In this document: positions 4,858 through 63,467 of the stretch, piece after piece
Layout: the number at the start of each line of letters is the position of its first letter
Numbering within the stretch: position 1 is the first letter of the stretch
Assembly (NCBI GenBank): GCA_017442855.1
Contig: JAFSPM010000028.1
Span: 1-64,000 of the forward strand
Direction: 5' to 3'
DNA: 64,000 bases
Origin: Bacteroidaceae bacterium
Lineage (GTDB): Bacteria > Bacteroidota > Bacteroidia > Bacteroidales > Bacteroidaceae
Program-made: the position numbers and the translations under genes
The notes under the pieces: generated by a model
The model's database searches: none
What the model saw: the letters and a program-made list of their open reading frames with translations, nothing else
Told to the model about the DNA's origin: nothing

Positions 4858-7479
4858 ATGAAAAGAACTCGCTATATATGCATCTGTTTGTGCTTGCTGA
4901 TAGGCTGCTGGCTGAACCCGACGAAGGCACAACAGCAGGCTTATGCCCAACGTATGTTGGACGTTGAGGCGGGTATTACCTATGCTGAAAGCCTCTTTGC
5001 TATTTCCAACTATTCTTGTCAAAATAGGTTCTCGAGGGAAACGGCCTCGGTAGAGGAACTGTTGCAACGACAGACGGATGGTTTCTATTTCTATTTACAG
5101 GAAGACAGTCGGACGAAACAGATCATGATGCGCAAGCCAGATGGCTCGTTTGCTCCGTTGAAGGTGGCATTGATGGCCATCAAACAGTCGCTGAGTGAGA
5201 ATGCCTATCAGTTTGTTACCCTTTTTTTAGACTTTAACATCGAGCTGAATCTGACTAAGGCGTTTGATGAGGTAGGGCTGACAGACTGTTTATATGAATA
5301 TGGTGAACGGAGCAACTGGCCCTCGCTAAAGGAGATGATGGAACAGGACAAGCGCTTGGTGGTGTTTGAGGTGCAAGGGCATGTGAACAGTCCGGAGTGG
5401 TTGCACAACATGAATGAAATGGTGGAGCATACCGATCCCGATTGGGGCAACGCCATGAACAGTGTGGAATCGCAAGAGGAGAAATCGAAAAAGCAACTCA
5501 GCGTCTTCACCGGCTTCAAGAATGTGGAGGCCATGCAACTCAGGGGAGGAAGCCTGTATGAGACGGCTCGCTATACCCCTTATTTGGTGAACCTTATCAA
5601 AGATATGTGGAGCAGTGAAGGAAAGGTGCCCAACTTTGTTCTGGTCGATCGGTTTGATGGCTGGGTACCGAGTACCTTGCGCAATGTGAGGGATTTCAAC
5701 CTGGTATATGGAGCCGTTATCAACAATGACGAGTTGGTGAACTATGTGAATTGGGAAGGCATGAGCAATGTTACTGCAGGACTCTATTGCTTCCCGTTGG
5801 AAAATGGTATGGAGTTGATGCTGAGTCCGATAGTGCCAGGTTACAAGGTACAACCTGAGAAAATGTATGCCAAAGGTAACCAGAAACGCATCATGATGGA
5901 TACCTTCCGAGCCACCCCTTTACCAATAGACGATGGGCTGGAAGCTTACCTGCCTTTTAATGGTGAGGTGAAAGATATGTCGTTGCGTAAGGTGCCCATG
6001 GAGGGTCAGGGAGTGGATTTCGAGTTCGAGATGAGTCGCGGGCAAGCAGCATCGTTTGCAGGGCAGAGTCGAATCAACTTGCCTACGGCACAAGATCTGC
6101 AACTGAGGGATCATGACTTCACTGTGCAGACTTGGCTGAAAATCCCTAAGTTTGTTGATGGCAAACAAGACTATTGTGTGTTGGGTTCGAAGAGCAGTGC
6201 TTACCAACAGGCGTTGCATTTACTGATTCGCAATGGCAAACCCTATATGGGCTTCTTCAACAACGATATTGAGGGGCATACGGTGATTGAACCCAACAAA
6301 TGGTATAACATTACCTGGCGATACAACAAGCAGAACGGCGAGCAGGCAATCTTCGTGAATGGCAAGCTGGATGCTGTGGCAACAGGCAGACCTGGGTATA
6401 TGGGTAGTGATAGCATCTATGTAGGTTATACGGGCTTTAGTCAGACCTCCTATTTCACGGGTATGCTTGACAATTTAGCTATCTGGTCAAGGGTGTTGAG
6501 CGACAAGGAGATCTTGGGCTTGAGTAATCAGACGATTGAGTTGCAACTGTCGGAGCGTCCTTCTATTTTTAAAGACAACGGATGGACGGTAGCCATCGTG
6601 TTGGCAATAGCTTTGTTGGCCGTTTTGTTGTTCGGACAAAGAAGGTGGAAACGCCATCATGCCAAGGGTCTTTCATCAGCACAAGACTTGGAAGAAATGT
6701 CGGAAGCTTCAATGAATGCTTATTCGAATATGCCTCCTACAGAGAAGAACTGCATCAGGTTGTTCGGCCAGTTCCAGGTGGTGGATAAGGACGGTGAGGA
6801 TATTACGGCCTTGTTTACGCCTAAACTGAAACGACTCTTTATCTTGTTGTTGGTAAACTCGACAAGAGGGAAGCATGGTATCAGCGGTAGTGAGATGAAC
6901 GACTTCATTTGGGGAAAAGACACCAAGAATGCCAAGAGTGTGAGGAGTGTATCGGTGTTGAAGCTCCGTAAGATATTGGAAAGGCTTGACAAGGTTGAGA
7001 TAGCCTTCAATGTTAACAAATACGCTGTGGTGATGAGTGGAAGCGTCTATTGCGACTACCTGCAATGCTTGGCCATGTTGGAGGGCAAGCGAGTGAACGA
7101 TCGTCAGGATTTTGAACGCTTCTTCGAAATCATTAGCCGCGGAGAGGCTTTCGAGGGTGAGTCGTTCGACTGGTTGGATGATGCCAAGGGCTATGTAAGC
7201 AATACGGCCGTGGATGTGATGGCACATTTCATTACAGATTACCAACTGGAAACAGAGGCTGACGCGATAAAGCACATTGCATCGAAGATGTTGGTGAACG
7301 ATCCTTGCAACGAGGAGGCATTGCAGTTCTTGACGAAGGCGTTGCTCAGCCAGAATAACTTTAAGCAGGCTCGCTATGCCTATGACAGCTTCTGCACAGA
7401 ATACCAGAAAGCCTATGGTGAGGAGTTCAAGATTGGCTTTGAGGAGCTTACTACAGGTGCAAAAGTAGGCGATAATTAG
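4858..7479 (+). CDS. transmembrane regulator: PLC-like, LamG, TM, SARP/BTAD
   Basis: 873 residues. A signal peptide (MKRTRYICICLCLLIGCWLNPTKA) is followed at about 40-285 by a region resembling the PI-PLC X-like phosphodiesterase fold (VTLFLDF, WPSLKEMMEQDKRLVVFEV, PNFVLVDRFDGW). The usual catalytic His positions are missing: AISNYS stands where THNS is expected. A LamG/concanavalin-like domain spans about 360-555 and one TM helix about 575-593, followed by RRWKRHH. The cytoplasmic part has an OmpR/SARP-type winged helix (about 630-730) and a BTAD-like helical region to the end. This predicts a one-protein sensor that binds a periplasmic ligand and acts on DNA. It lies upstream of Gfo/Idh genes, the likely targets (inference). 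The domain calls are mine from sequence pattern. Confidence 0.75.
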   Translation: MKRTRYICICLCLLIGCWLNPTKAQQQAYAQRMLDVEAGITYAESLFAISNYSCQNRFSRETASVEELLQRQTDGFYFYLQEDSRTKQIMMRKPDGSFAPLKVALMAIKQSLSENAYQFVTLFLDFNIELNLTKAFDEVGLTDCLYEYGERSNWPSLKEMMEQDKRLVVFEVQGHVNSPEWLHNMNEMVEHTDPDWGNAMNSVESQEEKSKKQLSVFTGFKNVEAMQLRGGSLYETARYTPYLVNLIKDMWSSEGKVPNFVLVDRFDGWVPSTLRNVRDFNLVYGAVINNDELVNYVNWEGMSNVTAGLYCFPLENGMELMLSPIVPGYKVQPEKMYAKGNQKRIMMDTFRATPLPIDDGLEAYLPFNGEVKDMSLRKVPMEGQGVDFEFEMSRGQAASFAGQSRINLPTAQDLQLRDHDFTVQTWLKIPKFVDGKQDYCVLGSKSSAYQQALHLLIRNGKPYMGFFNNDIEGHTVIEPNKWYNITWRYNKQNGEQAIFVNGKLDAVATGRPGYMGSDSIYVGYTGFSQTSYFTGMLDNLAIWSRVLSDKEILGLSNQTIELQLSERPSIFKDNGWTVAIVLAIALLAVLLFGQRRWKRHHAKGLSSAQDLEEMSEASMNAYSNMPPTEKNCIRLFGQFQVVDKDGEDITALFTPKLKRLFILLLVNSTRGKHGISGSEMNDFIWGKDTKNAKSVRSVSVLKLRKILERLDKVEIAFNVNKYAVVMSGSVYCDYLQCLAMLEGKRVNDRQDFERFFEIISRGEAFEGESFDWLDDAKGYVSNTAVDVMAHFITDYQLETEADAIKHIASKMLVNDPCNEEALQFLTKALLSQNNFKQARYAYDSFCTEYQKAYGEEFKIGFEELTTGAKVGDN

Positions 7480-60498: not shown

Positions 60499-60542
60499 CA
60501 AAATTATATGATTTGAACGAGTTGACAATTGATATAGGTCAA
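60499..60542 (-). promoter_or_regulatory. receptor promoter with FNR-type box
   Basis: Minus strand: TAATTTTG (60506-60499), 19-nt spacer, TTG (60528-60526), and directly upstream TTGACCTATATCAA (60542-60529), one base from TTGAT-N4-ATCAA. The box centre is about 42 bp before the predicted start. Confidence 0.75.
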
Positions 60543-60595
60543 GAAAAAGGATGTGCATGGCACATCCTTAATATTATCAATATGGTGTAATCCAT

Positions 60596-61297
60596 TTAGA
60601 AAAGCTTTGCAGCTACGGATTCCAGATTTTCCGCACCTTTCAGTTTTGGATAAGCCTTGCTCATAGCTGCCACGAATTCTTCGGCTGATGAGCATTTTTC
60701 CATATTCTTCTTAACATCACGCAAGTAGTTTAACACAAAGCCCTGAGCAGCTTGGTTACTGTAATCGCCATATTGCCCCAAATAATACAGGCATTTCTTG
60801 CTAAACGCCTTTTGTGCAGCCTCGAATTCAGCATTTACTGCTTCACGGCTATTCAGGCGATCAGCAGAGAGATGCTCTCTGACTGGAGCATAACGACTAT
60901 AATAGATCTTGCCCCCGATAATCAGAGCTGCTTGGTAGTCAATGGTTTCTGTACCTTCTGTAAAAATGAACTTCATGCCGCCTTTGCTTACATTTCCACC
61001 AGCTTTCACTTCTGTAGGAACACCTTCACCGCTTGGCTTGAAGTTATTGATCTCCATCAATACAGGCATGTAGAAATTAGTGAGTTGCTCTTCAAAAGCA
61101 GGAGAGGATTGTGGACGGTCAATCACTACCAAGCCTTTATCGCCTTCCACAATCAGAGCCTTTGGCTGTGATGCATCGGTGGGTTCATACACGTGTACCT
61201 TATAATAACCTGAGGTTAAAGTACTGAAGTTACCTTGCGCTGTTGCACTCATTGTCAGGGCGATTATTGCCACTGCTGATAATAACACCTTTTTCAT
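60596..61297 (-). CDS. secreted protein, possible inactive metallo-beta-lactamase fold
   Basis: 233 residues. Signal peptide MKKVLLSAVAIIALTMSATA. KALIVEGDKGLVVIDRPQSSPAFEEQL resembles the opening strands of metallo-beta-lactamase folds, but the HxHxDH metal motif is absent. An alpha-helical C-terminal third (EFEAAQKAFSKKCLYYLGQYGDYSNQAAQGFVLNYLRDVKK) follows. I do not recognise a function. Divergent from the PHP gene and under its own FNR-box promoter, so likely part of the same response. Confidence 0.6.
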   Translation of the reverse strand: MKKVLLSAVAIIALTMSATAQGNFSTLTSGYYKVHVYEPTDASQPKALIVEGDKGLVVIDRPQSSPAFEEQLTNFYMPVLMEINNFKPSGEGVPTEVKAGGNVSKGGMKFIFTEGTETIDYQAALIIGGKIYYSRYAPVREHLSADRLNSREAVNAEFEAAQKAFSKKCLYYLGQYGDYSNQAAQGFVLNYLRDVKKNMEKCSSAEEFVAAMSKAYPKLKGAENLESVAAKLF

Positions 61298-61330
61298 AAT
61301 TGTATCTTTATTAAGTTAAACATTTACGTT

Positions 61331-61497
61331 TGTCATCAGTTGACAGGACAAAGGTCTATGTTTACAGGAAAACTTCAATTGATTTATATCAACTTGTGTT
61401 TCAAGCTCTTCATTTCTTGATGTATGTCAATTATCCAATCTGTTTTGCGTTTCTTGATATAAATCAATTGACAAAATTGGAGGTTTGTCTTACTTTG
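61331..61497. promoter_or_regulatory. divergent promoter region with three FNR-type boxes
   Basis: Boxes: TTGATTTATATCAA (61379-61392), TTGATGTATGTCAA (61417-61430) and TTGATATAAATCAA (61454-61467). The first and third are perfect TTGAT-N4-ATCAA. Plus-strand promoter: TTG 61468-61470, 19 nt, TTACTTTG 61490-61497, box 3 just upstream. Minus-strand promoter: TTG 61378-61376, 19 nt, GACCTTTG 61356-61349, box 1 just upstream. Boxes are 37-38 bp apart. TGTCA-TCAGT-TGACA (61331-61345) covers the minus start site. Confidence 0.82.
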
Positions 61498-61527
61498 CAA
61501 CAGCAAATAACTTAAAAACTGATAATC

Positions 61528-62376
61528 ATGAAACGTAAAGAATTTCTCAGGAACTCAGGATTGATGATTGCTTCATTGGGATTGGGTGGAGGTTTCCAGC
61601 AGGTAAAAGCTACTCAACAATCTACAACATATCAACCTCAAGATGCAAATTCCTTCCCTTTGTACGACCTGCATGTGCATACTTCTCAATCTCAAACACA
61701 GGAGCAGATTGTAGAGAAAGCCAAGGTCAACGGCATTGAGATGTATGGCTTGATGCAGAATGTGGCACCTTGGGGGATTCGTACAGATGAGGACTTAAAG
61801 AAGCATTATGAGTCGGTAAAGAACTTTCCTGGCTTCATAGCCCTGCAACCTGTGTATATTGGCTGGAGCAAGAATCTCTCAAAGGAGACCATTGACAAGT
61901 TCGACTATGTACTGATGGATCCACAGTGGATTCCTAATATGAATAAATACGGTGACCAAGGCGAAGTGTGGGACCATAACTGCTATGTTCCTGATGAAGA
62001 AGCTTTCATGGAGCGTAATATGGAGTTCTATTTAGAGGTTATCAATAACCCTGAGCCACTGGACATCTTTGGCTGGCCGCTCTATTTGCCACCATCAATT
62101 GCTCGCGACTATTATCGTCTGTGGACCAAGGAACGTATGGAGATGATAATCGAGGCAGCAGCCAAGAGAGGTGTAGCTTTCGAAATTAACGACCTGGCTC
62201 GTACACCTCATGCTGAGTTTATCCTGATGGCCAAGAAGGCTGGTTGTAAGTTCACTTTTGGTAGTGATACCCGCGACCATCGCACATTCCGATTGGATTA
62301 TTGCAAAGAGGTTGCTAACCTGTGTGGCTTGACCCGTGATGATTTCTATATTCCAACCAGAAAAGAAAGAAGATAA
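61528..62376 (+). CDS. exported PHP-domain protein
   Basis: 282 residues. An N-terminal signal with one KRKEF motif and a hydrophobic stretch (SGLMIASLGLGGGFQQV) suggests export (Tat-like or Sec). The PHP fold is seen in LYDLHVHTSQS (metal HxH, about 46-56), later FEINDL, and the C-terminal GSDTRDHRTF with a metal Asp/His. PHP enzymes hydrolyse phosphoesters using two or three metals; the substrate here is unknown. Overlaps the VOC gene by one base (TAATG). Confidence 0.78.
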   Translation: MKRKEFLRNSGLMIASLGLGGGFQQVKATQQSTTYQPQDANSFPLYDLHVHTSQSQTQEQIVEKAKVNGIEMYGLMQNVAPWGIRTDEDLKKHYESVKNFPGFIALQPVYIGWSKNLSKETIDKFDYVLMDPQWIPNMNKYGDQGEVWDHNCYVPDEEAFMERNMEFYLEVINNPEPLDIFGWPLYLPPSIARDYYRLWTKERMEMIIEAAAKRGVAFEINDLARTPHAEFILMAKKAGCKFTFGSDTRDHRTFRLDYCKEVANLCGLTRDDFYIPTRKERR

Positions 62377-62765
62377 TGAAAATAGATCACGTTGCATTGT
62401 TCTGTAGCGACTTAGAAGGCATGAAGGATTTCTTCATGCACTTCTTCGCCGCAAAAACTAACGAGCTGTATCACAATCCTCATACGGGCTTGCAGACTTA
62501 TATTCTATCGTTTCCCGATGGAGATACCCGCTTGGAGATTATGCATCGCCCTGATGTAGAAAGTTTGATAGGTGATGAGTATTGCCACATGGGCTATATA
62601 CACTTATCTTTATCCGTAGGAAGCAAGGAGCAGGTTGATTTCCTGACCTTATCGCTAAAAGAGGCTGGCTATCAGGTGTTGAGTGGTCCTCGTACTACAG
62701 GAGATGGCTACTATGAGAGTTGTATTGTGGGTCCAGAGAAAAACCTGATTGAGATAACAATTTAG
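62376..62765 (+). CDS. VOC (glyoxalase-like) family protein
   Basis: 129 residues: KIDHVALFCSDLEGMKDFFMHFF with the first metal His, HMGYIHLSLSVGS with the second, and RTTGDGYYESCIVGPEKNLIEITI with the last Glu. A bleomycin-resistance/glyoxalase-like metalloprotein of unknown substrate. Coupled by TAATG to the PHP gene, so the two are expressed together under FNR-box control. Confidence 0.86.
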   Translation: MKIDHVALFCSDLEGMKDFFMHFFAAKTNELYHNPHTGLQTYILSFPDGDTRLEIMHRPDVESLIGDEYCHMGYIHLSLSVGSKEQVDFLTLSLKEAGYQVLSGPRTTGDGYYESCIVGPEKNLIEITI

Positions 62766-62873
62766 GTTCCAAAGTTAATGTCAATATAACAACCATACTG
62801 ATGAAGATTCTTGTGCAGCATTGCACGTAATCAGTTTTTTGTTCGGGGGGATGCATCGTGAGGTGCATCCCTT

Positions 62874-63467
62874 TTATACTGCCCCAGCCCTGATACGGCT
62901 TAAGGTTTCGGGAGTCATGAGGAGATAGGAGGCGATGTGCTGTAGGGGAGCACGTTTGGCGGCTTCTGGATATTCCTTCACGAAGCGCTCATAGCGCTCG
63001 CGGGAACTCTCGAAACGGAAGGCATCGGCCTTGTGCTGGGTAATGATGAGGTCGTCTTCCTGAAAGACACGGTAGTATTTGGCAATGCCCCACGATTTCT
63101 CTGTCAGTTCTATAAACTTGTTGTAGTTATGCAGCCAGAGGATACAGGGCTCTAACGCTTCTGCCAGCAGGTGATTTGTAACACCGGCATATAGGCTCTC
63201 GATACTCATTACAGTATCACCTTCGGTAGAGAAATGCTCGGTCACATCATGCCCGTTTTTATAATAATACTGGCGTACTAATCCCTTCTCTATATAAATA
63301 TGGTCATGACATATTACACCGTCGGGGATGATGATTTCGCCTCGCTTTACTTCCTTGCGCACCAGAATACTGGCCAATAGCTGGAGGTCAGCATCATTTA
63401 GATGCACAAACCGTTCGGTCATCTCACGAGCTATCTCAACCGCTGTCTTTTTACTTGTTGCTCCCAT
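62874..63467 (-). CDS. Crp/Fnr family transcription regulator
   Basis: 197 residues from the ATG at 63467 (a TTG at 63488 is too close to the predicted transcript start). Cyclic-nucleotide-binding-like beta-roll about 20-130 (RGEIIIPDGVICHDHIYIEKGLVRQYYYKNGHDVTEHF). Dimer helix, then a short HTH with APLQHIASYLLMTPETLSRIRAG. The recognition helix reads ETLSR; FNR uses Glu, Ser and Arg at these positions to read TTGAT. No N-terminal Cys cluster, so not an FNR-type oxygen sensor. Likely controls the FNR boxes nearby. Confidence 0.88.
   Translation of the reverse strand: MGATSKKTAVEIAREMTERFVHLNDADLQLLASILVRKEVKRGEIIIPDGVICHDHIYIEKGLVRQYYYKNGHDVTEHFSTEGDTVMSIESLYAGVTNHLLAEALEPCILWLHNYNKFIELTEKSWGIAKYYRVFQEDDLIITQHKADAFRFESSRERYERFVKEYPEAAKRAPLQHIASYLLMTPETLSRIRAGAV

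Follow-up and report, generated by a model that had tools for sequence, protein, structure and literature searches.

Boxes and promoters at the locus

We analyzed a 64,000-nucleotide stretch of a Bacteroidaceae genome (assembly GCA_017442855.1, contig JAFSPM010000028.1, positions 1 to 64,000), hereafter the window, from a gut-dwelling relative of Bacteroides. Its end carries, in order, minus-strand genes for a TonB-dependent receptor and a secreted protein, plus-strand genes for a PHP-like enzyme and a VOC protein, and a convergent gene for a regulator of the Crp/Fnr family. Four 14-bp boxes lie at this locus, all outside genes and spread over two gene-free gaps. An initial annotation of this DNA had described them as TTGAT-N4-ATCAA sites, two perfect and two with one mismatch, and all four were located as described. 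The annotation had further set three of them against the −33 elements of Bacteroidetes promoters. This geometry recurs in all three cases: TTG directly follows the box, and an octamer resembling a −7 element stands exactly 22 nt past the box end (TAATTTTG for the TonB receptor, GACCTTTG for the secreted protein, and TTACTTTG for the PHP-like enzyme). The TonB promoter alone has the strict −7 sequence TAnnTTTG, the other two showing one departure each. On our assumption that TAnnTTTG occupies the place of the E. coli −10 hexamer, the 22-nt gap puts the box centre near −42, consistent with the predicted class II activator position (centre near −41.5, against the −35/−33 element). The remaining, middle box lies 38 and 37 bp from its neighbours, and on neither strand does a −7 element stand 22 nt from it.

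We propose that the adjacent 197-residue Crp/Fnr protein is probably a local class II activator of the TonB, secreted-protein, and PHP-VOC promoters. The sequence itself shows the box, its geometry, its conservation, its linkage to the regulator gene, and the target genes; that the regulator binds and activates, which way it autoregulates, what the middle box does, and what the signal is are our inferences.

The window has 59 sites with at most two mismatches, compared with 46.3 on average after shuffling (3 of 100 shuffles gave at least that many), and perfect sites also occur within coding sequence at 5170 and 61047. Since this total is just modestly raised, the site alone carries little meaning. 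The window’s own genome (2.76 Mb, 80% complete) has 24 occurrences of the pattern TTGAYNNNNRTCAA vs. 6 of the backward pattern. Among the sites on its other contigs, 17 of 18 fall within open frames, and the geometry is missing at the sole intergenic one (C21:322), which precedes by 295 bp a gene that by eye is argR-like. The two gaps at the locus, chosen after the fact, hold four sites where 0.003 would be expected.

Table 1. Features at the end of the window (coordinates counted from its first nucleotide)
Feature	Position	Strand	Basis
TonB-dependent receptor, 745 aa	58234..60471	-	Pfam PF00593 E 7.3e-8
−7 element TAATTTTG, TonB receptor promoter	60499..60506	-	22 nt from box; TTG of −33 element adjoins box
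Putative activator box TTGACCTATATCAA, TonB receptor promoter	60529..60542	-	1 mismatch to TTGATNNNNATCAA
Secreted protein, 233 aa, shortened Vmh-type relative	60596..61297	-	alignments; partial NF040580 match
−7 element GACCTTTG, secreted-protein promoter	61349..61356	-	one departure from TAnnTTTG
Putative activator box TTGATATAAATCAA, secreted-protein promoter	61379..61392	-	0 mismatches to TTGATNNNNATCAA
Middle box	61417..61430	.	1 mismatch to TTGATNNNNATCAA
Putative activator box TTGATATAAATCAA, PHP-VOC promoter	61454..61467	+	0 mismatches to TTGATNNNNATCAA
−7 element TTACTTTG, PHP-VOC promoter	61490..61497	+	one departure from TAnnTTTG
PHP-like enzyme, 282 aa, N-terminus Tat-like by eye	61528..62376	+	weak profile matches; conserved HxH and acidic residues
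VOC/glyoxalase-I-like protein, 129 aa	62376..62765	+	PF00903 E 1e-13; PDB 3e5d E 3.5e-33
Crp/Fnr-family regulator, 197 aa from ATG, helix PETLSR	62874..63467	-	PF00027; PDB 3dn7 E 1.4e-15

The promoter architecture across the genus and its probable regulator

We defined a strict architecture, TTGAYNNNNRTCAA-N22-TANNTTTG (box, 22 nt, TAnnTTTG), and searched for it in 149 of the 158 available genomes of the window’s genus. The search returned 129 matches, and the backward control returned 1. Short and checkable, this promoter rule flags candidate targets in 77 of the 149 genomes. With the gap left free at 8–36 nt (41 genomes), we obtained 91 matches and 7 in the backward control; 35 had a gap of 22 nt, 8 a gap of 23, and 16 a gap of 8–10, and all others were scattered, with at most 4 at any one gap. 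In a sample of 301 genomes of the family, a match was found in 20, namely 13 of the 22 from the window’s genus and 7 of the 279 others. A scan of viral contigs using one box plus its flank gave no match.

The architecture is linked to the gene family of the window regulator, in line with the annotation, which had pointed to the neighbouring Crp/Fnr gene. Counting as strong crp homologues those that match the window regulator at E up to 5.5e-33, we found 40 of the 129 strict matches (31 genomes) within 3 kb of one, where 0.17 would be expected at an assumed mean genome of 3.7 Mb. Across 80 named crp loci (624 kb), there were 50 boxes vs. 3 for the backward pattern, and 29 of the loci had a strict box. 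The box/−7 pairs in these loci comprised 23 at a gap of 22 nt (16 of the 80 loci) and 19 at gaps of 8–11 nt. Pairs of the first kind stand upstream of MATE pumps and YiiX-like lipoproteins and, in the rumen clade, upstream of crp and TonB genes; those of the second kind stand mostly before crp itself in Bacteroides, with the box over the −33 position, which suggests autorepression. The 16 matches with a gap of 8–10 nt in the 41 genomes divide into 7 just before a crp homologue and 9 elsewhere. Within 220 bp before crp, a strict box was present in 21 of the 80 loci and a box with at most one mismatch in 31 (reversed sequence: 0 and 1). Among 353 other genes of the same loci, some of which are targets, the corresponding counts were 21 and 42.

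The two closest relatives of the locus come from a roe-deer-rumen assembly (G306) and from sheep rumen (G313), with regulators 90 and 88% identical to that of the window. We scanned 9–12 kb of the window and of both relatives for a box with at most one mismatch, a gap of 22 or 23 nt, and a −7 element ending in TTTG, allowing small departures, and every place found fits a promoter. The window end gave its three promoters (TonB, secreted, PHP-VOC). G306 gave four places, before crp, the secreted gene, the TonB gene, and a broken PHP gene; G313 gave three, before crp, the TonB gene, and a Nim-like gene with nitroreductase and VOC genes after it on that strand. The Nim-like genes of G306 and G313 score 88.3 and 82.6 bits, below the cut-off of 260 of the NCBIfam model NimABCDEF, and are Nim-like only. 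In a further relative of the same genus, G324, the scan found the TonB place alone, and the window receptor is 89–90% identical in all three relatives. The gap at the TonB box is 22 nt in G306 and G313 and 23 nt in G324 and in a more distant species, G032.

The annotation’s expectation that the boxes would be conserved in relatives with the same genes was borne out in G306 and G313. Boxes, TonB, VOC, and crp genes are retained in both; the PHP gene is broken and the secreted gene intact in G306, and both are gone in G313. The box of the secreted-protein promoter is kept in G306, where its −7 element is GAACTTTG. The PHP-VOC box is likewise kept in G306, and a box in the same slot of G313 precedes the Nim-like, nitroreductase, and VOC genes; the −7 element is identical to the window’s in G306 and is TTCCTTTG in G313. 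Three boxes occupy the divergent gap of G306, spaced 36 and 37 bp apart. In G032, a TonB homologue (about 51% identity) immediately follows a crp homologue (35%), and two boxes are present, of which one has a gap of 23 nt. In another genome, G401, crp and TonB homologues are convergent neighbours without a strict box. A strict box stands upstream in 5 of 20 TonB loci (the window, G306, G313, G324, and G032). Judged by these comparisons, the TonB receptor is the stable predicted target in this lineage, and the PHP and secreted proteins are variable ones. Together, the fixed 22-nt gap and its conservation in relatives also favor the class II position that the annotation had predicted; the observation is confirmed and is stronger than first claimed.

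We then examined the regulator protein. It has an effector domain (cNMP-binding-like) and a C-terminal DNA-binding domain, as in the Crp/Fnr superfamily. PF00027 matched at E 8.2e-6 and 26.2 bits (cut-off 27.5), and in a second scan at 27.8 bits, above the cut-off; the match to PDB 3dn7 spans residues 25–201, and the C-terminal part had no match among Pfam models. The recognition helix reads PETLSR, and its P, E, L, S, and R do not vary across the 18 rows of one alignment or the 34 of another. The FNR-type residues Glu, Ser, and Arg are thus present, as the annotation had read them. It had also noted a lack of FNR-type cysteines, and thus of an FNR iron-sulphur cluster. The protein has two cysteines, in columns where cysteine occurs in 9 and 8 of 18 rows and in 15 and 9 of 34; they are poorly conserved, and we rejected FNR proper, which has four conserved 4Fe-4S cysteines. 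Another column (89 of alignment A2, with numbering from 0) holds cysteine in 30 of the 34 regulators and serine in that of the window, so the mechanism in this species cannot be a cysteine switch at this place. In cAMP-binding Crp, the phosphate-binding cassette contains Arg-Ser; by eye, this pair was not visible at the expected place in alignment A1.

In the mechanism that we propose, a regulator dimer would bind the FNR-type box TTGA(T/C)-N4-(A/G)TCAA, the end of which, fixed 22 nt upstream of TAnnTTTG, would put its centre near −42. The bound dimer would contact RNA polymerase in class II fashion and activate the TonB receptor, the secreted MBL-like protein, and the PHP-VOC operon, and the middle box probably serves a second dimer for both divergent promoters. 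In several Bacteroides, members of the regulator’s Bacteroidales family adjoin a MATE pump and a YiiX-like lipoprotein, with 22-nt boxes at both, and may repress their own crp promoter through a box over the −33 position at a gap of 8–11 nt. As signal, a small compound, toxic or redox-active, is probable, rather than oxygen sensed through an FNR-type 4Fe-4S cluster.

Target genes and possible purpose

Of the 129 strict matches, we examined 30 for a target gene; the gene directly after the box could be named in 17, and 13 had no clear gene. The named targets were 8 MATE pumps (of two kinds), 5 SDR oxidoreductases, 2 VOC proteins, 1 AraJ-like MFS transporter, and 1 YiiX-like lipoprotein. One example of each kind except VOC was scanned against family libraries, and the others were named by likeness. 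The pumps marked by the rule include those of B. cellulosilyticus, B. oleiciplenus, and B. clarus; in B. cellulosilyticus (L121), the MATE, crp, and YiiX-like genes all carry boxes. The YiiX-like lipoprotein of Bacteroides crp loci scored 25.7 bits with PF05708 (cut-off 27) and 38.7 with NF007458 (cut-off 216) and is YiiX-like only. Of 30 VOC loci, 3 carry a box in the 300 bp upstream, at a gap of 21 or 22 nt and in one case with a mismatch; further VOC cases with a box are L091 and L251. On this basis, efflux and detoxification look like the wider theme of the box-bearing targets.

Two settings of the architecture recur. An SDR gene with box and 22-nt gap recurs far from crp in five genomes of the genus (L083, L085, L086, L092, and L103). 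In four further genomes (L101, L102, L106, and L107), it stands after permease genes that by eye are FecCD-like; two of these genomes (G403 and G420) have no strong crp homologue, and this is probably another Crp/Fnr regulon.

The annotation had taken the secreted protein to be of no known kind. Three alignments show it instead to be related to Vmh-type MBL-fold secreted proteins of 277–301 residues; it is shorter than these, which align along it around a missing stretch of about 43 residues. Its match to the Vmh model NF040580 is partial (E 7e-5, 22.2 bits, cut-off 430), and searches of Pfam and PDB gave none. Lacking these 43 residues, it may be a pseudoenzyme or a binding protein of MBL fold. 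The PHP-like enzyme scored 12.6 bits with PF02811 (E 0.17, cut-off 26.4) and E 5e-7 with NF006251, under the cut-off, and is PHP-like only; an HxH motif and several acidic residues are conserved across 12 aligned proteins. A scan for related loci with the PHP protein as query found no match. The VOC protein is glyoxalase-I-like by PF00903 and PDB 3e5d.

One possible purpose, which we hold tentatively and which is compatible with either view of the regulator’s identity, is glycoside uptake and processing: the TonB receptor would import, the exported PHP-like enzyme would act, possibly with a GFO/Idh/MocA oxidoreductase in a 3-keto-glycoside route, and the activator would sense the product. Five TonB homologues (L258–L262, 55–60% identity) each lie divergently to a lipoprotein that includes a PHP-like part (26–29% identity); in both lipoproteins scanned (L259 and L262), this part is fused to a 3-keto-disaccharide hydrolase domain. 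This pairing may mark a glycoside-uptake module, and it offers our strongest lead toward glycoside processing by the TonB-PHP pair. In G405 and G326, the PHP orthologue adjoins a GFO/Idh/MocA gene and one that by eye is sugar-isomerase-like. TonB genes have a GH92 gene as neighbour in G401, and genes for a carboxylesterase and GH78 in G032. However, boxes, TonB, VOC, and crp stay where the PHP gene is broken (G306) or lost together with the secreted gene (G313), no strict box was found at the five TonB homologues beside the PHP-like lipoprotein, and the named targets elsewhere are pumps, SDR, VOC, MFS, and YiiX-like proteins. Five other PHP orthologues of the genus also have no strict box in the stretches examined, and we rejected PHP as a core member of the regulon. 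The “uptake-and-processing response” of the annotation is not well supported as a general purpose, with pumps, SDR, VOC, and YiiX-like targets elsewhere and boxless PHP orthologues. Its uptake part stands in this lineage, where the TonB receptor recurs as target or neighbour.

A broader purpose is conceivable, and we hold it just as tentatively: a widespread and undescribed Bacteroidales stress regulon, in which a cluster-free Crp/Fnr activator would directly sense a toxic small molecule and drive efflux, Nim-like/nitro-reducing, and glyoxalase-type genes and, in the rumen lineage, the TonB receptor. Crp/Fnr activators of the CprK type sense xenobiotics and would be the model for such a protein. 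If true, one switch would couple the drug and xenobiotic tolerance of gut commensals with outer-membrane uptake. To our knowledge, few efflux or detoxification regulators of gut Bacteroidales have a defined site, and the promoter rule makes the signal of this Crp family directly testable.

Identity of the regulator and known systems

Several results weigh against the proposed local activator and would allow for a second regulator with the same box. Most strict matches (89 of 129) have no strong crp homologue within 3 kb, and 15 of the 129 fall in 12 genomes that have none at all; other Crp/Fnr proteins may, therefore, use the box, and several of the named targets far from crp may be under such proteins. 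The strict search gave no match in 41 of the 106 genomes that carry a strong crp homologue, 51 of the 80 crp loci have no strict box, and 49 have no box with at most one mismatch before crp. In G324 (L248, 3195–7483), which has the same synteny, the Crp, VOC, PHP, and secreted genes are lost between the TonB gene and a GFO/Idh/MocA gene, and yet a perfect TonB box is kept at a gap of 23 nt in a genome without a crp match at E 1e-10. The architecture scan found no box at the window’s own crp promoter, although both close relatives have one. In a tree of 82 rows, from which the G401 and G032 regulators are absent and where the label “box” is given for every strict box up to 3 kb from crp, even inside coding sequence, the window clade forms a long branch, weakly placed and separate from the MATE-linked Bacteroides members.

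These points could be accommodated if the boxes were true class II sites with another Crp/Fnr paralogue as their main regulator, the neighbouring gene being a bystander or second user. Many genomes have several related crp genes, and the matches without or far from crp and the box retained in G324 would fit. We nevertheless consider this explanation unlikely in view of the proximity of 40 matches to this very family and the strict box before crp in 21 loci. Furthermore, three Crp/Fnr genes were found in the window’s own genome, and the FNR-type helix with Glu, Ser, and Arg is present in this one only, the other two helices being TTSNAIRT and TRPSLSR; at 80% completeness, a further Crp/Fnr gene may be unseen. 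Chance FNR-like palindromes in AT-rich promoters, to which the perfect boxes in coding DNA and the modest excess of sites in the window might point, were rejected as extremely improbable given the fixed 22-nt geometry (129 matches vs. 1), the linkage to crp (40 vs. 0.17 expected), and the conservation in relatives.

The candidate regulon of the window’s Crp/Fnr protein can be set beside known systems. FNR and DNR use a Glu-x-x-Ser-Arg helix and the class II position. Their proteobacterial box, TTGATnnnnATCAA according to PMC1274295, is like that of the window; the window family differs in having no conserved FNR-type cysteines, other targets, and a Bacteroidetes-type promoter with TAnnTTTG. 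HcpR2 of Bacteroides and Clostridia is likewise a Crp/Fnr protein with very small regulons, and that paper gives it the motif GTAACnnnnGTTAC, Pro at the Glu position, and hcp as target; its motif differs from the window box and was rejected. Cur (BT4338), named MalR in PMC8510549, is a Bacteroides Crp-family regulator of sugar utilisation genes with probable autoregulation, according to PMC3878776. Its 22-bp motif there, wwwTATGTTnTAnAACATAwww, also differs from the window box and was rejected as well. PgRsp and CrpPg of Porphyromonas gingivalis are Bacteroidota Crp/Fnr proteins that bind their own promoters and whose signal is uncertain, and the available portions of the accounts of them (PMC6955866, PMC12040651) give no such box. 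In titles and abstract openings from a collection that includes few subscription journals, we found no description of the regulator or its box in Bacteroides, which does not prove that none exists. It would be a new regulon, its kind being known already. The CrpPg structure 2GAU was not among the PDB matches of the window regulator; one solved relative was found, the cyclic nucleotide binding regulatory protein 3dn7 (E 1.4e-15).

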